From positions 4,321,606-4,385,605 of the forward strand of contig JAJEKV010000052.1 of the NCBI GenBank assembly GCA_021234155.1: a stretch of 64,000 nucleotides of DNA, written 5' to 3'. This document shows positions 18,378 to 58,153 of the stretch, in pieces. This DNA comes from Isoetes taiwanensis (Eukaryota; Streptophyta; Lycopodiopsida; Isoetales; Isoetaceae). The notes beneath the pieces are model-generated. The model worked only from the letters and a program-made list of their open reading frames with translations, was not told the DNA's origin and did not search any database. Position 1 is the stretch's first letter; each line of letters begins with the position of its first letter. The position numbers were made by a program, and so were the translations under genes.

Positions 18378-18382
18378 TCTCG

Positions 18383-19420: not shown

Positions 19421-19422
19421 TC

Positions 19423-20190: not shown

Positions 20191-20345
20191 CTTGGTAATC
20201 ATTAGTAACAATCCTTTTCTTGGGATCACTTGTACTGTTATCTGGTCAGCCCATCCTATAAACATAAAACCAACTTATTAGAGTAATGTGCTCAAAAGTC
20301 AAATTGATCTAACTACTCTAAACCTACTGTAGATCCTTAAGCGTT

Positions 20346-21776: not shown

Positions 21777-22069
21777 CTTACAAGCCCTGCCTCAGATTTT
21801 TTTTCTCTCTCTTGCTTGGCAAAATACTCTTTGACAGAACACCTAAGATCAGTATGACCAATCTCCTTGCAAAAAGTACAAACTGGACACCCTCTACCAA
21901 AATGACCCTTCTTTTTGCATTTAGGGCATATTTGCCAATAGCAAATGTCAGCTGGATGTGACGTTCTATTGCAATGAATGCATTCAGGATAAGTTTTACC
22001 TGCCCTGCTTGCTTTGAGCTCCACAAGTTGTTTGGTCACTTTTGCTAAAGCTTCAGTTACCTTTGTCAA
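21752..22069 (-). pseudogene. Gag C-terminal zinc-knuckle region, element 1
   Basis: This encodes successive Cys/His clusters: CIHCNRTSHPADIC, CPKCKKKGHFGRGC and CTFCKEIGHTDLRC. The second and third are CX2CX4HX4C nucleocapsid knuckles that bind retrotransposon RNA; the first is a variant. The frame differs from the upstream gag core, so a frameshift near 22133-22170 separates them. Downstream the frame stops about where the integrase region begins, which marks the pol deletion junction at about 21755. Confidence 0.78.
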
Positions 22070-22132
22070 GTCTGCTTTAACCTCTGAAATTTGAGAATCA
22101 GCCTCTTCGTCTTTGGTTTTTTTTTCTTTTCT

Positions 22133-22849: not shown

Positions 22850-22892
22850 GAGTTCTCAAGATCCAGGTAGGATCTCGGTAGGACCTACAAAA

Positions 22893-23627
22893 TGTTGACC
22901 CTCAACCTGGCTTCAAAGGTCAACCACAATAAGCCAACTTGAGCATAAACCCAAATTGGGGTTAGGACCTCTAGATCACTTAAGGTGATCAGTCTATGTA
23001 AGATAAATCTAGCAAAAGAGCCAAAAACTCAAAGTTTCATACCTTTCCCATTTCTAGAAAATGGAACCTCGATTCAAATTGGTGCAACAATCGATAATGG
23101 ATTGAATTTTTGGGTCAGATGATTTAGACTGGCACAAAAAAGTTGCAGGAATCTAATGGTGAAATCCCTGACTGAGTAAGATCATCATCCTGAGAGATAT
23201 TCAAGCTTAAAGTGGGGTAAAAAATTGGTCAATGGCAGTCAAACTGGAAAACAGTGATCAGAAAAATGGAACTAGAGTTTCTGACCATTTTTTGGAAATT
23301 TTCAAAGCCAATATGTCACAAGGGTAGTCTGGAGTATGGGCATGAGGTCAGATCTTCATTTGGGTGCCCATAGGTATTTTTGCATTCGGATTTGGCAAAA
23401 TACAGTCAAGAACAGTCAAAACAGAGTGCAAATTTTTCTAACTCGAGTTGTAAATGGAAGTTTTTAGTTTTCTCAAATCATATGAATCTCAGATGTCTCA
23501 AGGATTGAGGGCAATTGGATCAAAAGCAATTAAGAACATAGGGAAATTTCCTGTAAGATTTTTTGAAAGACAAAATTGTTAAGAATCATATCAGAGAGAA
23601 TTTTTTCAGCTTGGCATCAAATTTTCA
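22893..23627 (-). repeat. 5' LTR of element 1, inner part
   Basis: Begins TGTTGACCCTCAACC, as the left LTR does at 16811, and follows it with few differences to the word attttca. There homology stops (equivalent to 17546). The missing outer part reappears at 33819-34270. No convincing tRNA-complementary primer site was recognised next to it. Confidence 0.82.
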
Positions 23628-26600: not shown

Positions 26601-26606
26601 ATTAAC

Positions 26607-28425
26607 TCAAACATGCCATGTGGGCTCCAACATGCCACCTATGCTCAAACATGGCAAGGTAGCTCAAGCACGCCACCTAAGCTCAAACACGCCAAGGTGG
26701 CTCAAACATGCAACCTAGGCACCAACATACCACTTAGACTCTAACATGCCGCCTAGGCTCCAACATGTCGCCTAGGCTCAAACATGTCAAGGTGGCTCAG
26801 AGATGCCACCTAGGCTCCGACATGCCACCCAAACTCCCACATGCCACCTAGGCTTCAACATGACACCTAAGCTCAAACATGACAAGGTGGCTCAAACATC
26901 CCACGTGGGCTCGAACATGCCACCTAGGCTCCAACATGCCAAGGTGGGCCAAACATGCCACGTGGGCTCCAACATGCCACCTAGTTGGCTCAAGCATGCC
27001 ACGTGGGCTCCAACATGTCGAGGTGGCTCAGACATGCCAAGGTGTCTCAAACATGCCACCTAGGCTCCAACATGCCAAGGTGGCCCAAACATGCCAAGGT
27101 GGCTCAAACATGCCACCTAGGCTCCAACATGCCAAGATGGATCAAACATGCCACCTAGACATGTTTGAGACACCTTGGCATGTTGGAGCCTATGTGGCAT
27201 GTTGGAGCCTGCATGGCATGTTTGAGCCATCTTGGCTTGTTTGCGCCACCTTGGCATGTTTGAGCTAAGGTGGCTTGTTGGAACCACCTTGGCATGTTGG
27301 ACCCATCTTGGCATGTTTGAGCCACCTTGGCATGTTGGAGCCTAGGTGGCATGTTGTGAGCCACCTTGGCATGTTGGAGCCCGCGTGGCATGTTTGAGCC
27401 ATCTTGCCATGTTTGCACCACGGCATGTTTGAGCCAAGGTGGCATGTTGAAGCCTAGGTGGCATGTTTGAGCCACCTTGGCATGTTGGAGCCTAGGTGGC
27501 ATGTTTCAGCCACCTTGGCATGTTGGGGCCTAGGTGGCATGTTTGAGCCACTTGGCATGCTTGAGCCACCTTTGCATGTTTGAGCCACCTTGGCATGTTT
27601 GAGCCACCTTCGCATGTTGGAGCCTAGGTGGCATGTTGGAGCCCGCGTGGCATGTTTGAGCCACCTTGGCATGTTTGAGCCTAGGTGGCATGTTTGAGCC
27701 ACCTTGGCATGTTGGAGCCTAGGTGGCATGTTGGAGCCCCCGTGGCATGTTTCAGCCACCTTGGCATGTTTGAGCCTAGGTGGCATGTTGGAGCCCACGT
27801 GGCATGTTTGAACCACCTTGGCATGTTTGAGCCTGCGTGGCATGTTTGAGCCACCTTGGCATGTTTCAGCCAAGTGGCATGTTTGAGCCACCTTGGCATG
27901 TTGGAGCCTAGGTGGCATGTTGGATCCCACATGGCATGTTGAGCCACCTTGGCATGTTACGGCCTAGGTGGTATGTTTGAGCCACCTTGGCATGTTGGAG
28001 CCCGCATGGCATGTTTGAGCCACCTTTGCATGTTGGAGCCCGCATGGCATGTTTGAGCCACCTTGGAATATTCGAGCTTCAGTGGCATGTTGGAGCCCCC
28101 GTGGCATGTTTGGGCCAACTTGGCATGTTGGAGCCTATGTGGCATGTTGGATCCCGCGTGGCATGTTGCAACATGCCAAGGAGGCTCAAACATGCCACAT
28201 GGGCTCCCAACATGCCACCTAGGCTCCAACGTGCCAAGGTGGCTCAAACATGCCACTCGGCTCAAACATGCCATGTGGGCTCCAACATGCCACCTAGGCT
28301 CCAACATGCCAAGGTGATGCCACCTAGGCACGAACATGCCACCTAGGCTCAAACATGCCAAGGTGGCTCCAACATGCCACCTAGGCTTCAACATGCCAAG
28401 GTGGCTCAAACATGCCATGTGGGCA
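26607..28425. repeat. 19-bp-monomer satellite, block 1, with two orientation switches
   Basis: The monomer is AACATGCCA + a variable hexamer + CTC and one spacer base, 19 bp in total. The hexamer is mainly CCTAGG, AGGTGG or CGTGGG. Monomers run forward at 26607-27158, reverse-complemented at 27159-28168, and forward again at 28169-28425. The second switch is the perfect palindrome GGCATGTTGCAACATGCC at 28160-28177. Long peptides of CHLGSNMPRWLKHAT type are open in several frames on both strands only because the 57-bp triplet of monomers lacks stops; they are not genes. Long hairpins are possible. Confidence 0.9.
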
Positions 28426-28481
28426 TGATGACTAGGACTTCATGCAAGAAATATGATAACCTTTGGAATTTTTGGTAGAGG

Positions 28482-29090
28482 CATTTTGTTGTTCGGGCAG
28501 TACAAAGACTCCGGAATGGAGATTCGACTTCGCCATGTCATCCGGAACGGCGAAATTACCCTAGAGACCAAGTTACAGGGTCATTTTTTGCAACGAAAAA
28601 AACACGAACCCTCTACATGGCAGTATTCTGCAGCCACCTCTTAGACCAATTGACTACGAACATGTTGGACATGAGCTACTTTGGCGCTTCTTGGAAAAGG
28701 GATAGTCTTCTGCCCACGAAACTTGGTTTCCAGGGTAATGTCAATGTTTTGAGTCCATTGGCAGAGTCAGTTTACAGTTCCGAAGTAGGAAAGTTGCCCG
28801 CCCGTGGCCAGGGTTCTTTGGGAGAGGACCTTTGGGGCGAACTGCCTCCGGAAGGTTTTAAAGGTCCATCTTCTGGCATTAACACCCTCCCTCTATGTGA
28901 TGACATTGTACAAGATTTTGGTCGAATTTGACTAGGATGTAGCCTCCGAAACGTAAACCCTGTGTGTTGCTAGGTTATTGAAGGGTTTACGTTATGGGGG
29001 TCGAGTTTTAGTCGGTTGCACTTGGGACATGGTTGAGAAGCTGCAATTGAAAATATGATGCAAAAGGAACTGATGGAATGGGGTTTGGAG
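28482..29090. repeat. About 810-bp repeat family, copy 1
   Basis: Begins ttcgggcagtacaaagactc and runs to tggaatggggtttgga, where it leaves the other copies. It shares an open stretch with them (for example GNVDVSSPLAES and VRGQGPSREDLWVELLLEGF in the better-preserved copies), which hints at former coding sequence of unknown identity. It contains the inverted repeat AACGTAAACCCT (28950-28961) / AGGGTTTACGTT (28982-28993). Confidence 0.7.
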
Positions 29091-29266
29091 TTATCCTCCT
29101 CCTAGTATGGCAATTAGAAGTCAAGAGCGCCTTTTGCAGTAGCAAAATTGTTTGGGATCATTCAGGATGGCCAATGGATCCAAACTCCATTATTTCAGTT
29201 GCGGAGGCTCCGCATGTGTGTTTAGCAAAGGTGCACCTAGCTATCCAAGAAAACGACCACGTTTTG

Positions 29267-29317
29267 GCCTCTGAAACGTAAACCCTGTGTGTATTGTAGG
29301 GTTTAGGTTTCGGAGGC
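29267..29317. repeat. 20-bp-arm hairpin variant of the AAACCCT inverted repeat
   Basis: GCCTCTGAAACGTAAACCCT pairs with AGGGTTTAGGTTTCGGAGGC across an 11-nt loop with three mismatches. It sits 8 bp before satellite block 2, at the edge of repeat copy 1. Confidence 0.75.
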
Positions 29318-29324
29318 ATGCATG

Positions 29325-29953
29325 TTGGAGCCACCTTGGCATGTTGGAGCCTAGGTGGCATGTTGGAGACCACGTGGCATGTTTGAGCCACCTTGGCATG
29401 TGAGAGCCTAGGTGGCATGTTGGAGCCCGCGTGGCATGCTTGAGCCACCTTGGCATGTTGGAGCATAGGTGGCATGTTGGAGCCCGCGTGGCATGTTTGA
29501 GCACGTTGGAGCTCTAGGTGGCATGTTTGAGCCATTTTGTCATGTTGGAGCCTAGGTGGAGCCCACGTGACATGTTTGAGCCACCTTGGCATGTTGAAGC
29601 CTAGGTAGCATGTTGAAGCCCATGTGGCATGTTTGAGCCACCTTGTCATGTTGGAGCCTAGGTGGCATGCTTGAGCCACCTTGGCATGTTGGAGCCTAGG
29701 TGGCATGTTGGAGCCCATGTGGCATGTTTGAGCCTAGGTGGCATGTTAGAGCCACGGTGGCATGTTGGAGCCTAGGTGGCATGTTTGAGCCAACTTGGCA
29801 TATTTAAGCCTAGGTGGCATGTTGTGAGCCACCTTGGCATGTTGGAGCCTAGGTGGCATGGTGGAGCCCACGTGGCATGTTTGAGCCACCTTGGCATGTT
29901 TGAGCCTAGGTGGCATGTTGGAGCCACCTTGGCATGTTGGAGCCTAAGTGATG
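29325..29953. repeat. 19-bp-monomer satellite, block 2
   Basis: The same monomer family as 26607-28425, in reverse-complement orientation (TGTTGGAGCCTAGGTGGCA and variants) throughout. It ends abruptly at the start of repeat copy 2 (tttccagggtaatgtcgatg). Confidence 0.88.
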
Positions 29954-32900
29954 TTTCCAGGGTAATGTCGATGTTTCGAGTCCGTTGGCAGAGTCAGATC
30001 ACAGTTCCGGGGTGGGAGAGTTGCCCGTCCGTGGCCAGGGACCTTCCAGAGAGGACCTTTGGGTCGAACTTCTTCTGGAAGGTTTTAGGGCTCCGTCTTC
30101 TGGCGTCAATGCCCTCCCACTACCTCATGACATTGTGCAAGATCCTGGTCCAATCTGACTAGGGTATGGCCCCCAAAACGTAAACCCTGTGCGTTGCTAG
30201 GTTATTGTAGGGTTTACGTTATGGAGGTCGAGTTTTATTCAATTGCACTTGAGACATGGTCGAGAAGCTGCAGTTGAAAACAAGAAACAATAGAAACTGA
30301 TGAAATGGGGTTTGGATTTACCGAGGCAGGCTTTCCTACCAGTGCTCCTCCGGGAGGGCAAATGCCAATGCCTCCCTTCCCGGAACCCGATTTTCCTATC
30401 CGACCGTTGAATTCTCCATTCAAGTAACTTGCTTCGAGTAGGCTCAAAAAAATTCAAGATCTGTCCGGGAGAACATATCAAACCGCAAAGTGTCCTGCAG
30501 TCGACCGTGTAGAAACCCAAGTGTTTTGTCGTTCGGGCAAAGATGGAGGTCTCGAATGGAGATTTGACTTCGCCATGTCGTCCAAACAAATGAAATTACC
30601 CTTAGGACCAAGTTACACGGTCATTTTTTGCAAAGAAAAGAAACACGAACCCTCTATATGGCGATTCCGCACCCTCCGCTAAGGCCAATTCACTACTTAA
30701 CGCGTGTTGGACATGAGCTACTTCGGCGCTTCCTCGAGCAGGGTGGTCTTCTCTCACGCAAACTTGGTCTCCGTGGTAATGTCGATGTTTCGAGTCCGCT
30801 GGCGTGAGTCAAATCACAGTTCCGGGGTGGGAGAGTTGCCCGTCCGTGGCCAGGGACCTTCTAGAGAGGACCTTTGGGTCGAACTTCTTCTGGAAGGTTT
30901 TAGGGCTCCATCTTCTGGCGTCAACGCCCTCCCACTACCTCATGACATTGTGCAAGATCCTGGTCCAATCTGACTAGGGTATGGCCTCCAAAACGTAAAC
31001 CCTGTGCGTTGCTAGGTTATTGTAGGGCTTACGTTATGGAGGTCGAGTTTTATTCAATTGCACTTGAGACATGGTCGAGAAGCTGCAGTTGGAAACAAGA
31101 AGCAATAGAAACTGACGAAATGGGGTTTGGATTTACCGAGGCAGGCTTTCCTACCAGTGCTCCTCCGGGAGGGCAAATGCCAATGCCTCCCTTCCCGGAA
31201 CCCGGTTTTCCTATCCAAAATTCTCCATTCAAGTAACTTGCTTCGAGCAGACTCAAAAAAATTCAAGATCTGTCCGGGAGAACATATCAAGCCGCAAAGT
31301 GCCCTGCAGTCGACCGTGTAGAAACCCAAGTGTTTTGTCGTTCGGGCAGTACAAAGGCTCCGGAATGGAGATTTTTTTTTTTTTTTTTTTTTTTTGAGGG
31401 AACGGGGTTGTTTTTTATATTATATATAAATCAAGAGTACAATGTTTGATGTTAATAGAGAATTACTACATGAGTAATCTCGACATCTTCATTCTCTACA
31501 AACACAAACTTATTTGTTTGCTCCAAAAGCTGATATACATGAAGCCCATATATAATCCGGCCCACAAAAACCGATGACGGATGATGATACGAGATAAGCC
31601 ATTAAGGCCCCCTAAATTCTCGCAAACCAAGTAGAAGAACCACATAAATTCTCCCGAAATATTGGGAAAAGGCAAGAAAAAACTCAGATATCTGATAGCA
31701 AGATGGGTAATGGAATGAGGTTCTTGGCATAGCAAGATTCAAAAACAATCAAGCATCAAAGACTTGAAAGATTCGCCCGGGCATAGCGCATTCTGAGCAA
31801 GAACCGAGCTAAATAAATATAGGGTTCTTGGCATAGCAGTACCAGAATCAATCAAGCATCAGCACTTGAAAGATCCGCTCAGGCATAACAGTACCTGAGC
31901 AAGAACCGAGTATTTAGGATCATCCCCCCATGCTGCCATGCTTCCTGTTATATCTGCAATTTCTGACCATTTACCAACAAATCCGTAGTAATCCACATAA
32001 TTTTACTAATCAGTGTGAGTCTTTACTATCATCCAAATACATAATCCAGACCTTTCTGCTAGGAAGAAAGAGTGGAAGGAAGGGGAGAATTTCTACTGTA
32101 AAGAAGACTTGAAGAAAGATAGCACTGCCAAAATCTGAAAACTGCCACCATAAGCTAATATTCCAAAATCATAATCCTGCTCCACCTTATAGACATCTAC
32201 GTCTTTTCGGTGTGTTGCTCAATAAGATAGAAACAGCCATAAAAGATAAAGAAAGATCCTTCAGGAAAGAAAAGATCTTTCAAGAAATAGAGTACCTCTG
32301 TTTTTATCTCTTAGAACCAGATCATAATGCTTCATAGGAAGCAGAAGAGCAGAATTAACCACGTTAGTGGCTTACCCGGAATCGTTAGCATACCGCCCTG
32401 GTGCTGCTACAGAAAATCTTTTTGCTATAAATCTTTCAACTCCACAAACAGAGATCAGAGTTTCCCTTCTTCTAGCAAGGGAAATCAGAGTTAGGAAGAC
32501 AAGAATTTAGCAGCAGTTCCGGTGGAGAGAAGGGGGGCGGCCCCTGTCTCACGTCGCCGCCCTAGCCGCTGCCGCTTGCGCCAAGAACCATTTTCCCGTG
32601 TTCACTGTGCCATCTGGAATGGAGATTTGACTTCGCCATGTCGTCTGAAACAGCGAAATTACCCTAGGGACCAAGTTACACTGTCATTTTTTGTAGCAAA
32701 AGAAACACGAACCCTCTACATGGCAGTATTCCGCACCCTCCGCTACGGCCAATTCACTACGAACGTGTTGGACATGAGCTACTTTGGCGCTTCCTGGAGC
32801 AGGGGTGGTCTTCTGCTCACGAAACTTGGTCTCCAGGGTAATGTCGATGTTTCGAGTCCGTTGGCAGAGTCAAATCACAGTTCCGGGGTGGGAGAGTTGC

Positions 32901-36347: not shown

Positions 36348-36457
36348 ATTCTATTCTATTCTATTCTATTCTATTCTATTCTATTCTATTCTATTCTATT
36401 CTATTCTATTCTATTCTATTCTATTCTATTCTATTCTATTCTATTCTATTCTATTCT
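36348..36457 (+). repeat. (ATTCT)22 array, probable LINE tail
   Basis: A perfect array of 22 ATTCT units preceded by catggacgataaaaatac. The same lead-in (GTGGACGATAAAA) precedes the (ATTCT)n tail of the LINE at 43060-43110, so this array is probably an expanded LINE 3' tail. Confidence 0.85.
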
Positions 36458-45120: not shown

Positions 45121-45126
45121 TGGAAG

Positions 45127-46701
45127 TGTGACGTTCCACGTATTTATACGGTCTACTATACGGGACACGTACAAATACAAGCACGTCACTCCCTAAAGGT
45201 ACGCTACCATGGGGGTATGGGAACTTAATTGCAACCTAGGGGGTTACCTTACAAAGGATTAAATTAGCTATGCTAATTTAACACATTATTAATAATAACC
45301 TATAACCTAGGAAATTAGGATAATTACCAATTGGGAAGGCGCCACCTGCCCCAATCGATTGGGCAAAGATGGGGATTGCCAAGTTTGGATGCCAACTTGA
45401 CCCCTATCCCCTCGATTGACTCACGAAGATCGACCAAGGAAGGCCGGGAGCTGAGCCATCAACCACCTGCAGAGAACCGCCATACCGAGCCGTCCCCGTG
45501 AAGCCACAAATGCATCTTCAACCGCCAGAGATGGAGGCCCCCATGGGAATGAGTCCAGGCCGAAATTCAGGTAGGTGGCTATGTGAATTCTAGTTAACAC
45601 TTGGTTGTGTCCGTTTTTCTGTTCTCTTTGTAATTCAATCATAGAGACTAACCCTTGATTGTACAAACAAGTTCTCTTTATATTCAATTTTGGTTCTTAC
45701 TCAAAGGATGGATTGTTAATTCTTTGTTTGGTCCGACTCAAAACGGGGATTACGGGGTAGAGGCCTCAACCGCGGTACCGTGTCGAGGTATGCTCCTAGA
45801 TAGCTCTGTAAAAAGTCCCATTAGTTGCGGCCCTCGTGCACAAGAACCCACCGGGTCCTAGATGCTATGGTCCGGCTTAGCACCGCACAAGGAACACAAG
45901 GTGACATGAGGGGTGGGGTCTTGCATGAGCATACAAGGCTCCTGAGACTCCTACAGTGGGCTAGGCCTGATAGCCGGTCACGTAGAGGGCCGGGTATGGG
46001 TCTGACACTCCCTGGGTGGGAAGGTGTGATCCGTATGGAGCACCTTGCACTTTGAGTAGATTTAGGGTGAGTAAGTTGGGTACGGATGCGGGGTCGCCGA
46101 TGCGCACGCATTCTCTAGCTCACCCATGGAACCACCGTGGATTCGGAAGGGGACGCCCCCCCCCCGCCTCATCGGACCAAAGGCCATGAACCCGAGTAGG
46201 CTCGCAGGGTGATGCCCTCGAGTTTTGCGTCTCCGGAAGGCTATAGCAAAGCCATAGCATGAATTGACCCATCCGCAAAGTGTGCAATGGAGGGGCGGAT
46301 GGAGGGACAACCCTAGCCAATGTTCTATGCCAGCCAACGCCATGCCAAGACTCGGTCTGCTGATCTCTTGAGGCCCAGCCGTCAGTCGATCCCCACGGGA
46401 GTCTGAGCCGGGGTAGAACCTGGGGTTTGGGTGTTTTCTTAGGATTAGATGCATATTCTATGCCGCTGGTATATTGATGGATGTGCCACCCTTCGTGGTG
46501 GTTATTTATGTATATTCGCGGCCGTGTGCTAACCCTCATTGAAGGCGGGCCGAATGACCCCTTCAGGTCCTTCTTCGGCCTCATTTCATCGATGGCCCGA
46601 ACCGCATCGGAGGGCCCCGCCATGGTGAGATGATCGCCATGGGAGGGGAAAGTCCTCGCATGTATACGTCCGAGGGTCGATATATATTAAGGGAGCGCCC
46701 A
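45127..46701 (+). repeat. 5' LTR of element 2
   Basis: Starts TGTGACG and ends GCGCCCA, a degenerate form of the GCGTCACA end kept in the 3' LTR. Compared with the 3' LTR it has many one- to few-base indels and one larger deletion near 46530. The flank on its left is GGAAG. Confidence 0.86.
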
Positions 46702-46704
46702 CGC

Positions 46705-46719
46705 TGGTATCGGCCGCGG
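46705..46719 (+). other. Primer-binding site (initiator Met tRNA type)
   Basis: TGGTATCGGCCGCGG begins three bases after the LTR. The first seven bases match the initiator methionine tRNA 3' end complement (TGGTATCAGAGC), and the rest is degenerate. Confidence 0.6.
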
Positions 46720-47430
46720 ATTTCGGGTTGTTCAAATCATAGCACCGGCCAAACAAGAACCTCGTAAGCACGGTAGTTAGGAGGAGGCTAAGTCAATGTG
46801 TCGTTAGTTCTCTTTGTTGTTTGGTTTGGTGTTAGGTTAAGTTAAGAGATTGTAGCTTTGAAGTGGAGGGGCCAAGATTGGAGGCCTAGCAAAAGCCGGG
46901 GTAACTCAAATGACAAAGATGATGGCTCCATTGGATTGGGCGACACCACCCATTACCCTAAAAACAAATAACTCCAGCGAAAAATAGTCAAGGGCGTGCC
47001 CAAAACGAATTCGGCGCCGCTTTGCTTTTTGTCGCTTTGCGTCAAGTTAAAAGCGAAATGTCGTTTCTACCGAATCTGGACTTCGAAGTCAACGCGGGCC
47101 CGCCAGGTCAACTCGGGCGCCGCTTGCATTTCGACGACACCCAGTCGAGGCAGAAACCCGTATAATGCCATCGGCGCCCGACCGTATGTGGCGCGTATTT
47201 CCGCCGTATAATTTTTTTAATAATAAAATTTTGAAGTTAATAAGAAAAAAATTTGAAATTTTAAAAGTTAATTGGCCGTTTAGCAAACCATTTTCTGTCA
47301 TTTGCTTTTGCTTCCGCGCCTCCAACCGCCTGAGCCGCCCTCCGCCATCGCCACCGGACCGGACCTTGATACTGCGCCCTTGTGCTTTGTGCCTCCTAGC
47401 GCCCCCTCTGCCATCCTCTTCGCCGCCAGC
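46720..47430. other. Leader of element 2, no gene recognised
   Basis: Between the primer site and the first open frame. Includes a short AT-rich stretch (47205-47275) and a region rich in CCGCC and GCC at 47310-47420. Confidence 0.5.
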
Positions 47431-47442
47431 GCCTCACTATTC

Positions 47443-47769
47443 CCTATGGCTATTACCAAGAGCGCTCCGGACCCGTCCACCATGAGCATCGTGGAGATCT
47501 ACGCCATGATTGCTAAGCACATGGCTACTGACCCAGCCCTCATCGACATCTTGTTGGATGAGCTGGTCAATAGGTTTGAGAACAATGATAGGATTCCATA
47601 TCCTGTCTATCACTTCTCAGAGCCATTCCTCATCCGGCTGAACCTACGCCAGCTCCCCTATACCCTTGTTGAGCAACCTGATATGGTGATGATGCTCATC
47701 AAATTTTATCCTCCTAACAAGAAGGCCATACTGAGGAGGAAGATGTCGACGGAGGCCGAATCGGATTAG
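47443..47769 (+). CDS. Unrecognised ORF in the 5' region of element 2
   Basis: An ATG at about 47446 (MAITKSAPDPS) opens a frame of about 108 codons within a longer open stretch from 47302. The peptide contains PALIDILLDELVNRFENND and YPVYHFSEPFLIRLNLRQLP, looks helical and ordinary in composition, and ends at a stop at 47767-47769. It resembles no gag, pol or env domain that I know. It lies between the primer site and the histone H3 core, so it is probably part of the same captured or accessory block. It may continue, frameshifted, through 47770-48200, where open fragments persist. Confidence 0.4.
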   Translation, partial: PMAITKSAPDPSTMSIVEIYAMIAKHMATDPALIDILLDELVNRFENNDRIPYPVYHFSEPFLIRLNLRQLPYTLVEQPDMVMMLIKFYPPNKKAILRRKMSTEAESD

Positions 47770-48207
47770 GGTTTTGCCAGGGAAGACGACCACCGAGATT
47801 GAGCGTCCGACACAAAGAGCCCGGTAGGGAGTACCGGTACCTCTGAGACGGCTTTGCCGGGCCATCGATGGCGTAGCCATTGAGGTTCCCCATACCAATG
47901 GCATGAGGGTTCCAACAGCCTTTGTCCGGGGAGAAATCCCCGACATCGGCATAGACTATCTGACAACTATTCAGATAGATATGGGTCTTCGGCCACAAAG
48001 GTACCACGCTGAACTTAATCGCCGTGCCGCAGCCCCAACTTTTTGCTCGTGATCCAAGAAGACCTAAGGAGAGCTCGGGAAGAGCGCCGGAAGTTGGAGC
48101 AAGAGGAGCTGACCGACAAGATCAGCGGACCAACAGGAGGAGGTGCATCCGGGAGTGGCTCAACCCAAAACCCACGATCCGCCCGTTAAGCTCCGAAGGA
48201 AGGGAGT

Positions 48208-48669
48208 TGCTCATAAGGCCGGCAGTCAATACAAGGATAAGTTAAAGACTGTCGGGGCTTTTGGGAAGAAGACCAGCTCCGACCGGAGGCAGCAGAGAGT
48301 GGATAACTCCCGGCCGGTTGCTGGGGCTAAGACGGTGCCAACATCGTCGGGGCCTCGGCCGCAGCGGAAGCCTCATCGGTTCCGACCGGCATCGCGGCAT
48401 TGGCGGGAGATCCGCAAAATTTCGAAGTCCACGGACCTTCCGATCGAGGAAGTCGCCTTTTCGTCAGGCCGGTACGAGATCGCACGCGGCAATTTAAGAC
48501 CGATCTCCGCTTCGGCACCTTTTGTAATTTTGGCGCCCAAGAGGTCAGCCAAGCCTACTTGGTAGCACTTTTTGGTGATGCCAACCTTTGCGCTATCCAC
48601 GCAAAGAGGGTCACCATAATGCCTAAGGATTTAGCCCTCGCCCGTAGGATACGGGGGGAGCAACCTTAG
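48208..48669 (+). pseudogene. Histone H3 gene carried inside element 2
   Basis: The core 48368-48669 is recognisably histone H3. KPHRFRP, REIRK and KSTDL lie in one frame. After a frameshift come [27 protein letters not shown] and [18 protein letters not shown], then TAG. The span of about 302 bp equals the length of H3 from the KPHRFRP motif to the C-terminus, so the fold is complete in length. The upstream stretch (from about 48208) is Lys/Arg-rich but does not match the canonical ARTKQTARKS tail. The C-terminal half is canonical-like rather than CENH3-like. H3 packages DNA in nucleosomes. At least one net frameshift, plus local changes in the alpha-N to alpha-1 region, make it a probable pseudogene. 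A polyadenylation-like aataaa follows at about 48717. Confidence 0.82.
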
Positions 48670-48840
48670 CCTACTTGCGGGGATCCGCATTTGTACATAT
48701 TTTTTTGTGATAATTAATAAAGAAGCTTTTATTTTGAATTAAAAGTTTAATGTTTTTTTTCCATGTTAAATTTAAAATAAAATGCTGACATCAGCTTTAT
48801 TAAGAGGGTTTAAAAGGGGACTGTAGGGTTATTTTAAACG
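48670..48840. other. AT-rich spacer with aataaa signal
   Basis: Follows the H3 stop. It contains taataaagaagc and further AT-rich sequence, then a pyrimidine tract ending cttctag at about 48867. It could be an old gene 3' end or an intron. Confidence 0.5.
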
Positions 48841-48889
48841 CTTCTTTTCCTCTCTCCTCCCTTCTAGCGCCATGGCTGCCAAACCTTTG

Positions 48890-49226
48890 TCTTGCTGCCT
48901 GGTACCTTGACGGAGAGAAATGGGATCCACAGGTTCCCTTCGACCTGCTGCAGCCTTTGCTATGCCAACGCATAGATCTCCTTGCGAACATGCAGCGGCA
49001 TCCGGACTATGCCGGATTCCTTGACTTTTACATGGAGGAAATGCTTCCTCTGTGTATTCCTCTAGGGGATCCTCCCCACTTGTATTTGGAGCGGGAGATA
49101 GTTCGGCAGATGCTAGGTGGGGACACACATGCTTATGATGTCCTGAAAGGTAAACTCCGATGGGGTAAACACCTACCGCTGGTCCAAAGATCGTGGGCGG
49201 TAGTATCTGAAGCTACTTTCGCCTAG
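48890..49226 (+). pseudogene. Unrecognised coding-like block in element 2
   Basis: An open frame gives AAWYLDGEKWDPQVPFDLLQ, then LLANMQRHPDYAGFLDFYME, then HLYLEREIVRQMLGGDTHAY, up to a stop at 49226. The peptide has a globular-protein composition. It follows a 3' splice-site-like cttctag. Related frames continue with breaks to about 50290 (for example FKYGQVLFIARDLGPEAEASW at 49925). No family was recognised. It lies between the H3 core and gag, so it is probably a captured or element-specific accessory gene. Numerous stops and frameshifts make a full protein unlikely. Confidence 0.4.
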
Positions 49227-49229
49227 CCA

Positions 49230-50290
49230 TCCTCATGGACCAATACGCTGAGGATGAAACCTTGCCGCAGAGAAGGGCAAGTCGCCGAGAATCCTCCGAG
49301 GAGGGGATGACGAGCATATAGGAATGGGCTTACTTTGCCCGCTGGAAAGAGCTAGCAGAGGAGCTACCACCGCCGTGACCAATCTATAGGCTTGTCGGGT
49401 TAGACGGCCTTCCAGCTTATTTATCACCGTAGGCGGGAATACCTTCTCTTGGATGATATTATCCGGACGTATCAATGTAGTGGCGGGATTTAGACGCAAG
49501 CGCAAAGACCATGTACTTTATGAGCTTGCGGAGTATTGTATGGATGATTTCATCGACTTCACTTCTACCGAAGCTTCCTCCGGAGGTGCACCACCGCTGC
49601 AGTTCCGTCGAGAGACCCTAGAGCCGCGGAGACTCTATTACGCCTTCGTGACTTTGTGATGCAGAACCAGCCTTCAAACTTCTCACGCACTGTGATGCCT
49701 TCACGCTATGGGACCTCACGCCCCAAACATCAATATGGTTGAGGTTCCTCCGCTCGGATGATGAGGGTGAAGATTTATATCATAACCCCAAGCAAGATAA
49801 GAAGGAGGAGCAACAGGAGCTCAAGGAGGAAGAAGTCCCCATGGACTTGATAAGGAAGTGGCCGATCCGAAACTCCGCAAGGGGAGGCGCTCGGTAACCA
49901 CCTTACCCGTTTCTTTTTGTCGGCCTTCAAATACGGGCAGGTTCTCTTCATAGCCCGGGACTTAGGGCCAGAGGCTGAAGCTTCATGGTGGGCCCTCCGT
50001 GCACTTTCTACACTCGCCGCCACAAGAAGCTTCCCTATCGTGACGCTTACGTATGTACTGCATCATGACGGGATCTTGCCCTTACGGCCTTGGGCCAGGA
50101 TATTGCGCCTTGGATGGGCATGAAGCTCCTCACGGCAGCCCCATTGGCCGTTGCCTATCCACCAGAGGTTGCATCTGTTGCGGCTGCCACAAGAGACCCC
50201 AGGGTTACTCACAAGGACACCGACCACCTCCACCACCTCCTAGGGCGAAGGATCAGGAGGCAGGGCATAGTTCCTAGTATAATTTTGCTA
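49230..50290 (+). pseudogene. Continuation of unrecognised coding-like block, heavily frameshifted
   Basis: Several frame segments of 50-80 codons alternate, including DDFIDFTSTEASSGGAPPLQF (about 49540-49600) and VAYPPEVASVAAATRDPRVT (about 50150-50205). GC content is higher than in the flanking AT-rich spacers. Nothing was recognised as gag, envelope or a known host domain. Confidence 0.35.
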
Positions 50291-50545
50291 TGAAAGATGT
50301 ATATATATATATGTTTTGCTAGTTTTTTTTTCTTATATATCTATATATGTGTGTTCTGGGATTTTCCGTTGGCAATTGAATGGACCATATTGACAAATGG
50401 TGTACCTTATTTACTTATTAAATACAAAGTTCTCTTGAGAAGTATTATTGAATTGTGTGTTCTTCTTTATGACATCCTCTTCAAAAAGTATTAAAACTTT
50501 AGAATATAATGGAATTACAAAATGTTCTCTATTTATTCCAACTAT
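50291..50545. other. AT-rich spacer ending in a 3' splice-like site
   Basis: TA-rich DNA with atatatatat, a pyrimidine-rich stretch, and the word ctatgttgcag at about 50541-50552 before the next open block. It has the form of an intron, but no clear GT donor was assigned. Confidence 0.4.
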
Positions 50546-50551
50546 GTTGCA

Positions 50552-51115
50552 GGAAAAACATTTGGGAATATGAGGAGAGAATCACCGATATGGTTAGGAG
50601 GGACGATCCCGCCCCTTGAGACTGTGACTATGGCCAGAGATATGGTGAATATCCGTGAGTGGGAGGAAGGCTATGAAACCAACCACCGCCTCCAGTGGGA
50701 ACTCTACGACCCTCGACAAAGGGTCTGAGATAGTTAACATCCTCGTGGATCAAGCTTTTCGAGGATCCAAGATGACCCCTCGCGGTCGCACTGGACCTAC
50801 CGGAATATGACCAGCACGCCTTCGAGGACGCCAATGACCATCTTTGGCAACTCTTTTATGCGATGCGCGAAGCTCTTTAACCTTCTGATTATCAGCCCAA
50901 CATGGGAGTACCAAGCAATTATTGTCCAAGCCCGGGCACGCTTATAAACTCGTCCGAGCCGCAGACGGAGAGTACCGCCACGCGATCCTCAGACTTTCGC
51001 CAACCCCTAGGCTTGGTCTCTTCATTATGTTTTCTTTGTTGCTCAAGCATTACTGCAGCGGATAGAATTTTAAGAGTTTCCACTGTATCATACCTACTTT
51101 CGTCTTAACCCATGT
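50552..51115 (+). pseudogene. Unrecognised coding-like block before gag
   Basis: The open stretch includes GKTFGNMRRESPIWLGGTIP and NIREWEEGYETNHRLQWELY. After a stop at 50728, related frames continue to about 50960. An AT-rich tail with aataaaaac follows near 51150. No family was recognised. Its position just upstream of gag leaves open that it is an extension of the element's own 5' gene. Confidence 0.35.
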
Positions 51116-51254
51116 ACCAATATACTTGTTTTGTACTCGACTTCAATGAAATAAAAACATTGTTTTCTGTTTGTATATTCTTTTGATCTCAATTATTTTA
51201 AAAGGGATTATACATTAGTATAAATCTGCTTATATATTCATGAATGCTCCCTAT

Positions 51255-52415
51255 AGATCGGTTATGCGAACGCGCTTTGGCAAACACCCTCCAACGCCAG
51301 TAGGCTCACCCCTGAACAGGAATTGATGTTAATGAAAAGGCAACTCGGTGAGTTACAGGCTTATGTGTTGCATACCAATCCACTGCCACATACTCAGGAG
51401 GACGGACCGGAATTACCTCCACGACCATTGAGTCCACCCGCGCACAACCCATCTCCTCCCGAGCTAGCCCCCTGCACTGCATGCAGGAGGACTCATGCTA
51501 AGCGCCATCGGTTCCTCTAAGGATAGCGCCGCTTCCTCACATTCAACCACTTCTGGTTCTTCGGGTCCTCGCTATCGGACGCTGATCATTCAAGGCGTAA
51601 GGATAAGGAATACCGAAAACCGCTGATACAAAATCACTAGTATATGGAAGAACCGGAAGTCGGCTCGGTTTGATGGGAAATCCGAGGAGGCTTGAATGCG
51701 GAATCTTGGTTGGACGAAATGAAGGAATTCGAAGTCCTATGGAATGACAGAGAAAGATACAGTGGAAGGTCGCCACCACCATAACCTTACCGAGCTGCCC
51801 GTATTTGGTGGAAGGGTTACGCCGAGCTAAACACCGGATAGGAGCGTATGCAAGTTCGTGAAGTTTGCTAAGGCTTTTTAAATCGCATTCGTGCCTCTCG
51901 CCGCACAAATGCCAACAGATTCGACCTTCTACGCTTTGGAACAGTATGGGCATGTCCGCAAGGTGCCTACACCGACGAATTCATGCGCTTGAGGTTGTAT
52001 GTGCCAGAATGAATGAGAAAAGAGCAAAGAGAGGGCTACATTGAAGGGTTGGCCCCATCTATTAAACGAATGGTCAAGGCTATCGACCCAAAGTCAGTAG
52101 CGTAGGCGGGGCTAAGGCATTAAGCCTTGAGGAAGACACGCCAAAGAACCAAGATCTGCGACCGCTGCCCTTACTCGCAGCCCACGGCCGTCCACACCTT
52201 TACAAACCCCGTCGCCAAGTCCGGGGCCCTCTCAAAGACAATTCTTATGGCCGCCAGAGAAGAAAGTCGCCTTTAGCACGCCGGATAAGCGTAACAATGC
52301 CGGGTAAGGAAATACGGGCCTCTTACCCATTCCTAAAGAGGCCGTGAGAACAGTTCCGCGGATAAGGCATGCTACCGGCAGATGAGGCCCGACACTTCAT
52401 GCGTAATTGTCCGTG
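51255..52415 (+). pseudogene. Gag of element 2
   Basis: Starts near ATG 51268 (frame MRTRFGKHPPTP), or in the overlapping frame giving LTPEQELMLMKRQLGELQAY, a leader typical of chromovirus gag. Broken frames then give LDGKSEEA, the gag core region to about 52150, and a degenerate CCHC knuckle at 52367-52412, where a C-Y-R segment and ARHFMRNCP are recognisable only by changing frame. Gag forms the particle and binds RNA. At least six frame changes or stops are visible, so no functional product is expected. Confidence 0.6.
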
Positions 52416-52574
52416 ACGCCACGCAGACGCTCAACTGCCATGGCCGACCGATTGGGAAGATTTGGAGTCCAATCTTGCCGCGGGAGGACGAGGCTCCCCG
52501 AGTACATTCATGGTGCGCCTCATATTCTTGCCGCTATAGAAACAGTAACGCCGAAAGTCAGCCTTCCGTTATTT

Positions 52575-52720
52575 CTACAATAGGCCAAGTAGACAAGAAG
52601 CCCTTCATAATTTTGATGGACACGGGTAGTAATACGATAATTTTGCTTCTCCTAGAATGGCCCGTGCATCGCAAGCCGGAAACATTGAGATCCCGTCCCT
52701 AAGCCAGTCCACATTAGCTA
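52575..52720 (+). pseudogene. Aspartic protease of element 2
   Basis: The frame gives QVDKKPFIILMDTGSNTIIL, where DTGS is the catalytic motif of retropepsin-like proteases, which act as dimers to cut the polyprotein. The downstream flap region is frameshifted. Confidence 0.7.
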
Positions 52721-53029
52721 GCGGTAAGATCGACACACTCATGGCCACCAGATAACCTTAAAATGCAAATGCCAAAAATGCACCAGCTTGCCTTGGGTGC
52801 CGAAGTTAATGGACATTGGCAAATATGATCTTATTGTGGGAATGGAGTTTTTAGCGCCCGCTAGGGCCCACATAGACCGTGGAGAAATCGGAGGTCACCT
52901 TCAACGCCGCTAATGGAGCACGCGGTGACAATAAAAGGTGATTCATTACACTCCGCTATGCGGTCAATGTCAATAAAGCAAATAGGAAAAAGCTATAATG
53001 CAGGAATGAACTTCTTTGCCTCATTAAAC

Positions 53030-53950
53030 TTGCTTCCATTGAGTCGGACTCCAAACAGCAGCAAGTAATCGACGCTTTACCATCGGACATTGCTACCCTT
53101 CTTCGAGAATTTAGCGATCTTTTTCCAGATGAGATCCACAAGCTTCCTCCTTTCAGAGGGGTGGAATGTGAGATAACTCTTGAACCGGGTACTAAGCCTA
53201 CCAAGAAAGCCCCTGCATCAATGAGTCCTCCTGAGTTAGCGAGCTTAAGAAACAGCCTACAAGAGTTACCAATTTGGGGTTTATTCGCCTAGTGTTTCAC
53301 CATTTGGCTCCTATTCTTTTGTCAAGAAGAAAGATGGCTTCTTAAGGATGTGTATTGATTATAGGCAACTCAATAAGCATACCATCAAGAATCGCTATGC
53401 TTTGCCTAGGCGCATGATCTTATGGACCGGTTGCAAGGAGCAAAATATTTCTCAAAGATTGATTTGGCTCGGGGTACCATCGATAAGGATTAAGGAAGAG
53501 GACATCCATAAGTCCGCTTTTTCACTGGATATGGGCATTACGAATTCAATCGTCATGCCTTTTGGATTGACCAACGCCCTGCGTTTATGCGGTTGATGAA
53601 TGACATCTTCCGCCAATACTTGGATGACTTTGTTGTCATTTTCTTTGATGACATTCTCATCTATAGTAAAACCTTGCAAACAACATGAACAACATCTTCG
53701 ATTAGCTTTGCAAAAGCTAAGGCCCATCGACTTTTGCCAAGTTCTCTAAATGCAAGTTCGCCACTCGAGGGTAGACTATTTGGGGCATATTATCTCGTGA
53801 AGGAATTGCTACAGACCCAAATAAGATAGAAGCAAAGAAAGGATTGGCCCATTCCAGCTAATGTTTCAGAGGTCCGGAGTTTCCTGGGACTCGCAGGATA
53901 TTATCGGAAATTTGTCAAGGATTTTGCAACAATTGCCGCACCTCTTACTA
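53030..53950 (+). pseudogene. Reverse transcriptase of element 2
   Basis: Successive landmarks: LLREFSDLFPDEI, VSPFGSYSFVKKKDGFLRMC, IDYRQLNKHTIKNRYALPR, then frameshifts, then [18 protein letters not shown], the polymerase active-site motif with both catalytic aspartates, and [16 protein letters not shown] at the RT / RNase H connection. The order and the FFDDIL motif are typical Ty3/gypsy. Several single-base indels and in-frame stops (for example around 53480-53500 and 53600) destroy the frame. Confidence 0.82.
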
Positions 53951-53954
53951 ATCT

Positions 53955-54440
53955 CACAAGGCATGAGAAAGTAAAGGATTGGATGGAACATTGGAAAACA
54001 AAAGTCCAAGTCGGCTTTCAGAAACTCAAGGATGCTTTAACATCTGCACCAGTCCTTACCTTGCCTGATCCGGAAAAGGATAAATCGGTAGCCACCGATG
54101 CGAGTAAGATAGCTACCGGTGGTGTCTTAATGCAGGAGGGGAGAGTTGTTGCTTACGATTCAAAGAAGATGAACGATGCAGAGCAGCGATATCCTACCCA
54201 TGATCGAGTTGCTAGCGGTTATGCGTGCTCTCCGTGATTTGGAGACACTACCTTCTTGGTAGAAGATTTCAGTTGGATACGGATCATCAGAGTCTCCGCT
54301 ATCTATCCACCCAGCCAAATCTAAATCTCCGTCAGCGAAGATGGATGGAATTCCTCGAGGAATATGACTTCGAGATTGTATACAAGCCGAAAAGCACAAT
54401 GTGGTTATGGATGCTTTGTCACGCCATCCCTTTATAACCC
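53955..54440 (+). pseudogene. RNase H of element 2
   Basis: [18 protein letters not shown] carries the first catalytic Asp. After a frameshift near 54200, WRHYLLGRRFQLDTDHQSLR and a final VYKPKS complete the typical Ty3/gypsy RNase H domain, which removes RNA from the RNA:DNA hybrid during reverse transcription. Confidence 0.78.
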
Positions 54441-54539
54441 GCACCCATTGTAATGCCATTTCCACACTCACCAAATGAGTTTGGGAAGCGTGATAGAATG
54501 CACCTTGGCCACGATCCCTGCGTAATATTTGGGAAAGTT

Positions 54540-55500
54540 TGGGTAAGGAAGCCCGCATCGATAGAGAACGTGAAGCATTTCGCTCATATAAGAAGGAGGG
54601 CAATTTATTATATTACAAAGATAAGTTGTGTGTTCCAAATGACTTGGGGTGCGAAAAGTTGATTCTCCATGACACACACAACAGCCTTATAGCAGGACAT
54701 GCGGGTTTTATGAAAAACTTACTTTAAGATCCGCTCCAGCTATTTTTGGCCTTCCATAAAGAAGGATATTGCTAGGTACATCAAATGATTGTCGTTTGTC
54801 GACAAAACCAAGGCGGAGCAATTAAGAGTTCCCGGGAGTTGCAACCTTTGGATGTGCCCAACGCCAAGTGGGAAGTCATAACCATGGATTTCATTGTGGG
54901 GCTTCCACGCATCTCGTGGGTATGATGCCTTAATGGTCGGGGTCGACAAATTATCAAAGATGGCTCACTTCCTGCCATGTCGCACCACGGACACCGCCTT
55001 TGACACCGCCTTTGCTCTTTGCAAAGGAAATTTTCGTGGTTGCACGGGATGCCGAGAGTAATTGTATCGATAGGGATCCTAAGTTTGTCGATGCATTCTC
55101 GAAGGATTTCTTCGCCACCATCCGACCAAGCTTGCCATGAGTACAGCCTACCATCCTCAGACAGATGGTCAAACAGAACGTGTCAATCGTATTATCGAAG
55201 ATATGCTAAGAAGCTATGTATGGAGTAAACAAATACAATGGGCCGATTATATTTACTTGGTGGAATTTGCCTACAACGATTTTAAAGCAGAGTCTTCTAG
55301 AATGTCTCCTTTCATGATAAATTATGGCTATCAATGTCTTACTCCGCACACATGGCATAATCCTGTTTCTAAAGTGGAGGTCTCTCAACAACTCCTTCTA
55401 GAAATGCGTGCCTTGGTGGAAGAAGTTCGGGTTACTTATTGGCCGCACGTGAGTCGCCGAAAGAGTCTAGCGGATAAGCACCCCAACCCCACCTAATCTT
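54540..55500 (+). pseudogene. Integrase of element 2
   Basis: The N-terminal H2C2 part is seen in LCVPNDLGCEKLILHDTHN and LIAGHAGFMK, and the second half is damaged. The core is marked by KWEVITMDFIVGLPR (first catalytic Asp). A damaged second Asp region near 55060 follows, then STAYHPQTDGQTERVNR, containing the catalytic Glu, and WADYIYLVEFAYNDFK. Frameshifts near 54730, 54920 and 55020-55130 disable it. Confidence 0.8.
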
Positions 55501-55900
55501 CCGTGGGGCTTAATCGGTTTGGCTTAAAATCAAAGTAAAACAAGCCAAGCTTAAAATTGGTAATCAGAAGAAGCCGGCACCCGATATCGGGCCGCTCGGA
55601 TTACCGAACGTGTGGGGAGAACAGCATATCGCTTGGACTTGCCACCCCGCTTGAAGATCCACAAGGTCTTTCACGTGAGTCTTCAAGCAACACACCCCCA
55701 TCGCAGGGAGGTTTTGGATACCCCTACCCTCCTAGAAATGACCCAAGAGCAGTGGAAATAGTGCCCTAAGCTCTTCTTGATCGAAGCTTACAAAACGGAC
55801 CAGGCGGACTCAAATGTTGCAATACTTGGTCAAGTGGAAGCACTTACCGCTTGAAGATGCTACTCGGTGATGAAGATAGACCTTGAGAAGCACTATCCGG
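55500..55900 (+). pseudogene. Integrase C-terminus and chromodomain of element 2
   Basis: At 55825-55872 one frame reads QMLQYLVKWKHLPLEDAT, the core strand-loop of chromodomains of plant chromoviruses, followed by Arg where a Trp is normally found, and then TGA. This motif guides integration to particular chromatin marks and defines the chromovirus clade. The preceding PFR-GPY-like region (55610-55700) is only readable in pieces. Confidence 0.7.
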
Positions 55901-56516
55901 ACTTCATGCGGGAATCTCAAGGCCGCACCATCAACGATGCTATCAACCCCGCTCCCGGCGGTAAGCTTGAAGGCTTGATTGACCGAGAATCATGTTTTAG
56001 AGGGGTAGACGCATCGTATATGATAGTAATAACGGACGTAGTGTATTGTTGATGTTGACATGACCGCGAATTGCTAGGAAGGCATCTAGTAAATAGACTG
56101 CGTTCGTTCTGGCTATAAGAGGAATATTTCTAGGGGGTGGTCCCTGCAACCACAACTTAATCATACTATTAACCTACGGGTATATGGTTGTGTGCAGGCC
56201 AATGAACAAGTCGTCACCTGCATTGTATAGAGGGTTGTTGATGACCCAACTTGTCCCGTATTGGTTTTGTCTACATGTGTGAATTTTGTTGTCAGAATGT
56301 TTTAAATCGGACTCCGGTCCTAAACTCCTTTGATCATAAGTTTGTATCGAGCACCCTGGTGCTTCTACTTTGATATTTTAACTTCAATGTATTACTGTCC
56401 AAATTACTATAATCTCAACGTATTAATGTTATATTCTTAACTTCATTCTCTAATTCAGTGCTTTACGTATATGTATTCAATTAGCTAACCCTAATGCTGA
56501 GGACAGCATTATTTTT
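55900..56516. other. 3' untranslated region of element 2
   Basis: Between the chromodomain and the polypurine tract; no further domain recognised. Confidence 0.55.
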
Positions 56517-56529
56517 AAGGAGGGGAGAA
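56517..56529 (+). other. Polypurine tract
   Basis: AAGGAGGGGAGAA directly precedes the 3' LTR. It is the expected plus-strand primer of an LTR retrotransposon. Confidence 0.88.
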
Positions 56530-58148
56530 TGTGACGCCCACGTATTTATACGGTCTACTATAACGGGACACGTACAAATACAAGCACGTCACTCCCTAAA
56601 GGTACGCTACCATGGGGGTATGGGAACTTAATTGCAACCTAGGGGGTTACCTTACAAAGGATTAAATTAGCTATGCTAATTTAACACATTATTAATAATA
56701 ACCTATAACCTAGGAAATTAGGATAATTACCAATTGGGAAGGCGCCACCTGCCCCAATCGATTGGGCAGCATGGGGATTGCCAAGTTTGGATGCCAACTT
56801 GACCCCTATCCCTGGGATTGACTCCCCTCAAGATCGACCAAGGAAGGCCGGAGCCGAGCCATCAACCACTGCAGAAGAAACCGCCATACCGGGCCGTCCC
56901 CCGTGAAGCCACAAATGCATCTTCAACCGCCAGAGATGGAGGCCCCATGGGAATGAGTCCAGCCCGTAATCTGTAGGTGGCTATGTGAATTCTAGTTAAC
57001 ACTTGGTTGTGTCCGTTTTTCTCTGTTCTCTTTGTAATTCAATCATAGAGACTAACCCTTGATTGTACAAACAAGTTCTCTTTATATTCAATTTTGGTTC
57101 TTACTCTGAAAGGATGGATTGTTAATTCTTTGTTTGGTCTGACTCTGAAACGGGGGGGATTACGGGGGGGTAGAGGCCTCTGAACCGTGTACAGTAGTAT
57201 GCTCCTAGATAGCTCAGAAAGTCCCATTAGTTAGCGGCTTTGTGCACAAGAACCCACCGGGTCCTAGATGCTATGGTCCGCTTAGCACCGCATAAAGGAA
57301 CACAAGTGGTGACATGAGGGGTGGGGTCTTGCATGAGCATACAAGGCTCCTGAGACTCCTACAGTGGGCTAGGCCTGATAGCCGGTCACGTAGAGGGCCG
57401 GGTATGGGTCTGACACTCCCTGGGTGGGAAGGTGTGATCCGTATGGAGCACCTTGCACTTTGAGTAGATTTAGGGTGAGTAAGTTGGGTACGGATGCGGG
57501 GGTCGCTGATGCGGCACGTATTCTCTAGCTCACCCATGGAACCACTGTGATTCTGGAAGGGGACGCTTCCCCGACCTGCCTCATCGGACCAAAGGCCATG
57601 AACCTGGAGTAGGCTCGAGGGTGATGCCCCCGAAGTTTGCGTCTCCCGGAAGGCTATAGCAAAGCCATAGCATGAATTGACCCATCCGCAAAGTGTGCAA
57701 TGTGAGGGGCGGATGGAGTGGACAACCCTAGCCAATGTTCTATGCCGCCAACGCCATGCCAAGACTTCGGTCCTGATCTCTCTGGAGGCCCACCACCGGT
57801 CGATCCCCACGGGAGTCTGAGCCGGGGTAGAACCTGGGGTTTGGGTGTTTTCTTAGGATTAGATGCATATTCTATGCCGTTGGTATATTGGATGGATGTG
57901 CCACCCTTCGTGGTGGTTATTTATGTATATTCGTGCTGTGTGCTAACCCTTGTATTCATGCTTCCGCGACGTAGGAGTCCCATTGAAGGCGTGGGCCGAA
58001 TGACCCCTTCGTGTCCTTCTTCGGGCCTCATTTCATCGATGGCCCGAACCAGACGGAGGGCCCTGCTCATGGTGAGATGATCGCCATGGGAGGGGAAAGT
58101 CCCCGTATGTATACGTCCGAGGGTCGTATATATTCTGGGAGCGTCACA
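56530..58148 (+). repeat. 3' LTR of element 2
   Basis: 1619 bp, starting TGTGACGC and ending GCGTCACA, a perfect 8-bp terminal inverted repeat. It is followed by the duplication GGAAG at 58149-58153. It is slightly longer and better preserved than the 5' LTR. Confidence 0.9.
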
Positions 58149-58153
58149 GGAAG

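Follow-up and report, generated by a model that had tools for sequence, protein, structure and literature searches.

A histone H3 core in an extra gene of a chromovirus family from Isoetes taiwanensis

The H3-bearing element and its gene relics

The window, the whole 64,000-nucleotide stretch of Isoetes taiwanensis DNA that was analysed, contains an H3-bearing LTR element spanning 45122-58153, with the target-site duplication GGAAG on both flanks (45122..45126 and 58149..58153, identified by sequence inspection). Comparison of the window with itself by blastn revealed a 5' LTR starting with TGTGACG at 45127..46697 and a 3' LTR ending with CGTCACA at 56530..58148, both on the plus strand; the blastn match covers 56530-58143 and the last five bases to the CA end were assigned by eye. 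The LTR pair differs by 43 substitutions and 52 indel events, giving 2.8% substitutions (43/1542). A primer-binding site (PBS) starting with TGGTATC lies at 46705..46717 (plus strand). The LTRs, target-site duplication and PBS of a chromovirus are therefore all present, and three gene relics lie between the PBS and gag, the first of which contains the H3 core.

A gag-pol relic at 51278..56025 (plus strand) was delimited by matches to two other copies of the family, L026 and L028. Pfam matches on the plus strand follow the order reverse transcriptase (53584-53727, 18.4 bits, below the cut-off in this broken copy), RNase H (53992-54213) and integrase H2C2 (54711-54785), followed by SH3_Tf2-1 (55597-55683), the last three all above cut-off. 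A weak match to the integrase chromodomain (PF00385, 16.5 bits, E=0.008, cut-off 25.1) is found at 55793..55864 (plus strand), the correct position at the integrase C-terminus, and the corresponding position in copy L012 reads ...YLVKWKHLPVEDATW... by eye. The first-pass annotation had described a chromodomain Ty3/gypsy element bounded by GGAAG duplications. The LTR pair with GGAAG on both sides bears out the element, and the sub-threshold PF00385 match together with the L012 reading by eye bears out the chromodomain. By its sequence features, the window element is thus a chromodomain Ty3/gypsy element, or chromovirus.

A second LTR element of the window is encoded on its minus strand (16811-23627, LTRs 16811-17546 and 22893-23627), and the integrase and gag frames of this element are open. 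Long minisatellite arrays built from a 19-bp unit occupy 26606-29956 in about 29, 54, 13 and 34 copies, partly in opposite orientations, and a perfect (ATTCT)22 microsatellite is found at 36348-36457.

Three-frame translation and alignment with L026 resolved the first gene relic, ORF1 (47446..48669, plus strand, frame-broken), into an N-domain, a linker, a basic segment and the H3 core. The start of the N-domain is preserved in a single open frame (47446..47769, plus strand) that encodes the same protein in L026. The H3 core including its stop, identified using PF00125 and solved H3 chains, lies at 48368..48669 (plus strand) and is spread over more than one frame, with several frame changes and no single open frame. 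The peptides KPHRFRP (48368-48388) and REIRK share one frame and two further H3 peptides lie in another, while the stop codon at 48667-48669 coincides with the end of H3. A 112-aa frame at 48331-48666 matches PF00125 with E=7.7e-16 (58.9 bits; cut-off 26.4) and solved H3 chains with E of about 8e-24, excluding a chance match to H3. All five H3 peptides quoted in the first-pass annotation are present on the plus strand in H3 order. Its interval for a captured H3 gene, 48208..48669, does contain H3, though only as the C-terminal part of the longer ORF1 relic: the H3 is not a free-standing gene and forms the C-terminal domain of a protein of 411-464 aa.

Alignment of the window ORF1 with that of L026, with which the window copy groups in subfamily C, gave 975 matches, 228 substitutions and 57 indel events. 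The substitutions fall at the three codon positions in the ratio 47/36/142 over ORF1 and 5/10/28 in the core. This pattern indicates that, until its frame broke, the window copy was evolving as a coding sequence.

The second gene relic, ORF2 (48873..50290, plus strand), is frame-broken, lacks a known domain and is colinear with L026 to 50290. The third, ORF3 (50498..50953, plus strand), matches L026 6166-6620, the site of a 165-aa frame. Intact stop-to-stop ORF2 frames of 460-502 aa are found in L009, L015, L018, L022, L024 and L025. No Pfam family scored above cut-off for ORF2 or ORF3, and the predicted ORF2 model has a mean pLDDT of 38.9, too low for a structure search. ORF2 and ORF3 are conserved frames (window 48873-50953; L015:4635-6020, L022:4328-5734) and, judged by eye, could belong to a single gene as exons separated by an intron near 50280-50555. 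An origin of ORF1 and ORF2 as duplicates was not supported by hhalign (E=0.39). In L012, judged from its frames, gag-pol follows directly after ORF1, without ORF2 and ORF3. Rfam and tRNA scans gave no matches.

A multi-copy family and selection on the H3 core

A Pfam histone profile search was carried out over the genome (1,658,258,908 bases, 1110 contigs), and the best-scoring 150 of 8705 first-look candidates, which take in every core histone and are not a copy count, were scored. Fifteen of these matches cover the profile from position 2, and three of them were translated in full, all proving to be host H3 that bears the canonical tail. The other 135 are non-canonical. Among the 135, a stop inside the match was found in 5 and none in 130, and the open frame reaches 300 aa or more in 55 and 400 aa or more in 36, the best-scoring 150 being biased towards intact matches.

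Twenty long-frame and eight short-frame non-canonical loci were then fetched, and all 28 sit in an element like that of the window. The H3 frame was recovered from 20/20 long-frame loci, where the window element matches over 2.5 to 8.8 kb. A short-motif scan of these 20 loci recovered the LTR start in 18, the PBS TGGTATCAGAGCC with at most two mismatches in 14, and the gag start in 10. In all eight short-frame loci, the core is preceded by the N-domain and followed by ORF2. A second sample was chosen independently of H3, using a piece of the L026 ORF2 as query: among the best 150 of 5568 first-look candidates (at least 89% identity, and hence subfamily C only), every 14th row from the third was taken by hand count (n=10), and 400 bases were fetched at the expected H3 site. 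A recognisable H3 core was detected by tblastn in nine of the ten; the 400 bases fetched at L046 contain none, and some copies have possibly lost H3. Among the others, a deletion has removed nine residues from L043, L049 has decayed, and the core of L051 is interrupted by a stop, while L047 shifts frame ahead of its core.

Colinearity of the window copy with L026 over 45822-50290, from the LTR through H3 into ORF2, rules out H3 as a nested insertion in a single copy, which the first-pass annotation had named as a result that would count against its reading. Copies without H3, the other such result, are represented by the L046 fragment alone, the core being recognisable in the other nine ORF2-chosen loci. 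The finding of H3 in a multi-copy family also disposes of the proposed alternative of a capture confined to a single copy.

The ORF1 protein is 411-464 aa long in 19/20 long-frame loci and 326 aa in L010; in L014 the stop at the usual place has been lost. The protein is conserved in all four subfamilies, A, B, C and D, which were distinguished by their N-termini and have a common layout of N-domain, linker, basic segment and C-terminal H3 core. In an alignment of 16 ORF1 proteins, the longest invariant stretches are in the H3 core, and N-domains from different subfamilies show about 45% identity. All four intact ORF1 proteins tried match PF00125 with E=2.9e-41 to 3.6e-44, as expected for an H3 fold, and Pfam returned no family above cut-off besides histone for any of the four. 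An AlphaFold model of ORF1 (16 rows) is fairly confident for the N-domain, with pLDDT mostly below 50 in the H3 part. The sole good Foldseek match of this model is a nucleosome chain (6fq8_A, rmsd 15), and no known fold in the PDB was found by Foldseek for the N-domain beyond this H3 match.

The canonical H3 tail, with K4, K9 and K27, is absent: ARTKQTARK or ARKS[TA] occurs in 0/20 rows. The basic segment is no closer to the H3 tail than its own shuffles in 6/6 rows, and a tail remnant in this segment (RTK..STGGK) was rejected, as 194 to 629 of 1000 shuffles reached its score in the six rows. These results agree with the earlier remark that the N-terminal tail does not match canonical H3. The subfamily D ORF1 at L028:3065-4309 starts with MARTKGTKS, compared with MARTKQTARKS at the H3 N-terminus, a resemblance that may be due to chance.

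Nei-Gojobori counts were carried out on 16 of the 20 ORF1 genes, leaving out L010, L018, L021 and L023. The core gave pN/pS of 0.067 within subfamily A (36 pairs) and 0.034 within B (10 pairs), values biased downwards since the 16 genes come from the best H3 matches; the N-domain gave 0.235 and 0.190. The corresponding dN/dS values within A and B are 0.044 and 0.024 for the core, 0.121 and 0.130 for the N-domain, 0.208 and 0.138 for the linker, and 0.135 and 0.185 for the basic segment. The H3 core is the most constrained part of ORF1 tested. The ORF2-chosen loci remove most of the bias of selection by H3. Seven of the ten fit an ungapped core pattern, which itself fixes about 14 residues, and these subfamily C cores gave pS 0.441, pN 0.0076 and pN/pS 0.017, with differences at the three codon positions of 71/0/493 (the L051 stop codon was skipped). 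An earlier count on fewer ORF2-chosen rows, one of which shifts frame near the end, gave a ratio of 0.055.

These ratios indicate that the H3 core is under strong purifying selection, and point to H3 as a selected and working gene of the family. Its near-unchanged state suggests that the histone does useful work for the element, although purifying selection by itself does not specify which function is kept. The 28/28 fetched loci and 9/10 ORF2-chosen loci, together with purifying selection, gave the outcome that the first-pass annotation had proposed for an H3 belonging to the element: H3 at one common site in many copies, with an open frame and low dN/dS. Its inference of a captured H3 or an H3-derived accessory protein is supported by the same tests. 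That the H3 is a functionless passenger, a piece of host sequence transduced a single time and since copied along with the element, is highly improbable for the family. Plant LTR elements are known to transduce pieces of host genes, as described for Bs1 in the relevant passages of PMC13317346, and the broken frame of the window copy fits such a fragment, as do the damage in L043 and L049, the stop in L051 and the missing core in L046 among the ten ORF2-chosen loci. Against it stand the core pN/pS of 0.017-0.067 in three subfamilies and, among the best 150 matches with their bias towards intact ones, the 130/135 non-canonical matches free of stops and the 36/135 open over at least 400 aa. Unless the low pN/pS is artefactual, a passenger is refuted family-wide, and the description holds for dead copies such as that in the window.

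Origin and age of the captured core

Sixteen TE cores were compared with host H3 and gave 82-88 identities over 99 positions, with pS of 0.79-0.97. At silent sites, divergence of the TE cores from host H3 is thus saturated, and the capture is therefore old. In a tree with seven host rows, the 20 TE cores form one clade with branch support of 100/93; the tree is built on few columns, good support was reached by 9 of the 54 inner branches, the bootstrap had yet to settle, and many of the reference rows come from odd H3 gene models. A recent single capture was rejected on the basis of the saturated silent sites and the single TE clade. Because of the low core pN/pS and the single clade, the H3 appears to have been captured once, long ago, by an ancestor of this chromovirus family, and kept as a selected gene. 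The motif QEFKTDLRF is common to host H3 and most TE cores, which fits, weakly, a capture from this plant lineage. CENH3 has a longer loop 1 and a diverged core. A CENH3 identity was ruled out, as the 16 TE cores align over the 99 positions at 82-88 identities and keep FKTDLRF.

Six LTR pairs of the family differ by 1.5 to 4.2% substitutions, with the pairing in L009 uncertain owing to a second LTR copy in the locus. At a substitution rate of 1.3e-8, which is calibrated for rice and not Isoetes, the H3-element copies would be roughly 0.6 to 1.6 million years old. The LTR pair of the second window element has 1 indel event against 27 substitutions, and the pairs of six other H3-family copies have 15-45 indel events against 17-52 substitutions. 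According to the relevant part of PMC8566536, the Isoetes taiwanensis assembly was made from Nanopore reads and LR_Gapcloser, so that assembly errors in the H3 repeat family are possible. The frame breaks in the window copy may be due to such errors or to decay.

Possible function and comparison with known systems

To gain insights into function, the 20 TE rows were scored at 19 H3 positions that we take to be DNA contacts and at nine that we take to form the H3-H3' interface. Fifteen of the 19 DNA-contact positions are unchanged in all 20 rows, with variation at 42, 53, 63 and 64, and all nine interface positions are unchanged. The DNA-contact arginine at position 72 is changed in two of the seven ORF2-chosen rows, as in decaying copies. 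At five positions (86, 87, 105, 107 and 135) the host residue is found in no TE row, changes that could weaken partner contacts, and the large N-terminal fusion might hinder entry into nucleosomes.

We propose a mechanism in which a chromovirus ancestor joined a captured H3 core to a new N-terminal domain, and the fusion was retained as a working gene upstream of gag. The ORF1 protein would pair with host H4 and enter nucleosomes, in which the position of the H3 tail would be taken by the element's own N-domain and basic segment. The H3 tail, and with it K4, K9 and K27, would be missing from nucleosomes on element DNA, whether this is cDNA not yet integrated or a new insertion, and the element would be harder to silence or would present a marked chromatin substrate for its integrase machinery. 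That a retained ORF1 is incorporated into nucleosomes in this way, as an H3 with a swapped tail, seems to us evenly balanced. The more specific proposal that the element builds its own nucleosomes, with the tail-swapped H3, maintained by selection for long enough that silent sites have saturated, replacing host H3 and blocking K9 and K27 marks on element DNA, is possible and more tentative. Both the action on element chromatin and the counter-silencing are what we infer from sequence.

An unlikely alternative is that the fusion acts as a decoy, soaking up H4 or H3 chaperones or blocking writers of the H3 tail, and so impairing chromatin assembly on the element. Conservation of the core and of the H3-H3' positions, combined with a tail that is not H3-like, is what a tail-less competitor would show, but a decoy has no obvious need for the DNA-contact residues, 15/19 of which are unchanged in 20 rows. 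This constraint favours nucleosome entry over a mere binding decoy. The separate basic segment ahead of the core and the position of the gene beside gag would also suit a role in packaging, where the H3 core coats or compacts element cDNA or serves in the particle and not in host nucleosomes. H3 wraps DNA only together with H4, yet a Pfam search of the three frames upstream of gag returned the H3 match only and no H4-like ORF, and we consider packaging quite improbable. The same element encodes a chromodomain, and the ORF1 protein might mark chromatin for recognition by the chromodomain integrase. We regard such guidance of integration as improbable, since the L012 chromodomain looks by eye like type II, the partner of which is given as unknown in the relevant passages of PMC6317226.

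Incorporation of ORF1 into nucleosomes as a tail-swapped H3 remains our preferred reading. Mobile elements are silenced via marks on the H3 tail, and a successful element family whose own selected H3 core is joined to another N-terminal sequence would, if the reading is true, have a direct route of interference with that silencing. The family makes the role of the extra ORFs of plant LTR elements a testable question, and the natural fusion shows which residues of the H3 core matter without the tail.

Protein database searches using the broken pieces of the window copy as queries did not find the ORF1 fusion in 14 of the best 120 of 7986 matches, nor did further protein searches or a search of viral contigs with the same pieces. 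The word histone is absent from the two Isoetes genome papers, including PMC8566536, and searches of literature listings and passages found no H3-carrying element in Isoetes. Extra ORFs upstream of gag in plant chromoviruses are already known from the passages available of PMC3485330 (ORF0 of Retrosat2, RIRE3 and RIRE8) and PMC11728184 (the sunflower Tekay 5'aORF, which is conserved and has a nuclear localisation signal). Like ORF1, these lie upstream of gag-pol, and the word histone is absent from both papers. The Isoetes family is compared below with three cases in which a host-type sequence is found in mobile elements.

Some 5' extra ORFs of grass (Poaceae) chromoviruses are reportedly partially similar to H3 (Steinbauerova et al. 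2011, Genetica 139:1543), which makes doubtful the earlier statement that no standard LTR lineage is known to carry an H3. Compared by description only, the Isoetes element is likewise a chromodomain Ty3/gypsy element with an extra ORF upstream of gag and similarity to H3. Its core differs from the partial similarity of the grass case in being complete, with 99 residues, and strongly selected; its host is a lycophyte, and two more extra frames follow. Passages of PMC9289625 bear out the part of the 2011 survey that concerns a LONELY GUY domain, and not the H3 part.

In fungi, according to the abstract of PMC6710886, H3 has been captured and amplified by DNA transposons. As in Isoetes, a housekeeping H3 was captured by a mobile element and multiplied; the fungal element is a hAT DNA transposon, and the copies in P. 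fijiensis are inactivated by RIP except the original, whereas the Isoetes LTR element keeps its H3 under purifying selection. Orchid Ty3/gypsy elements carry a captured m6A demethylase domain (PMC9289625, in the part available), and here too a Ty3/gypsy family has kept a host-type domain plausibly useful to the element, in this case an enzyme acting on RNA and not a chromatin subunit. What is probably new in Isoetes is the lycophyte host, the complete and strongly selected H3 core, and the multi-copy family with two further frames.
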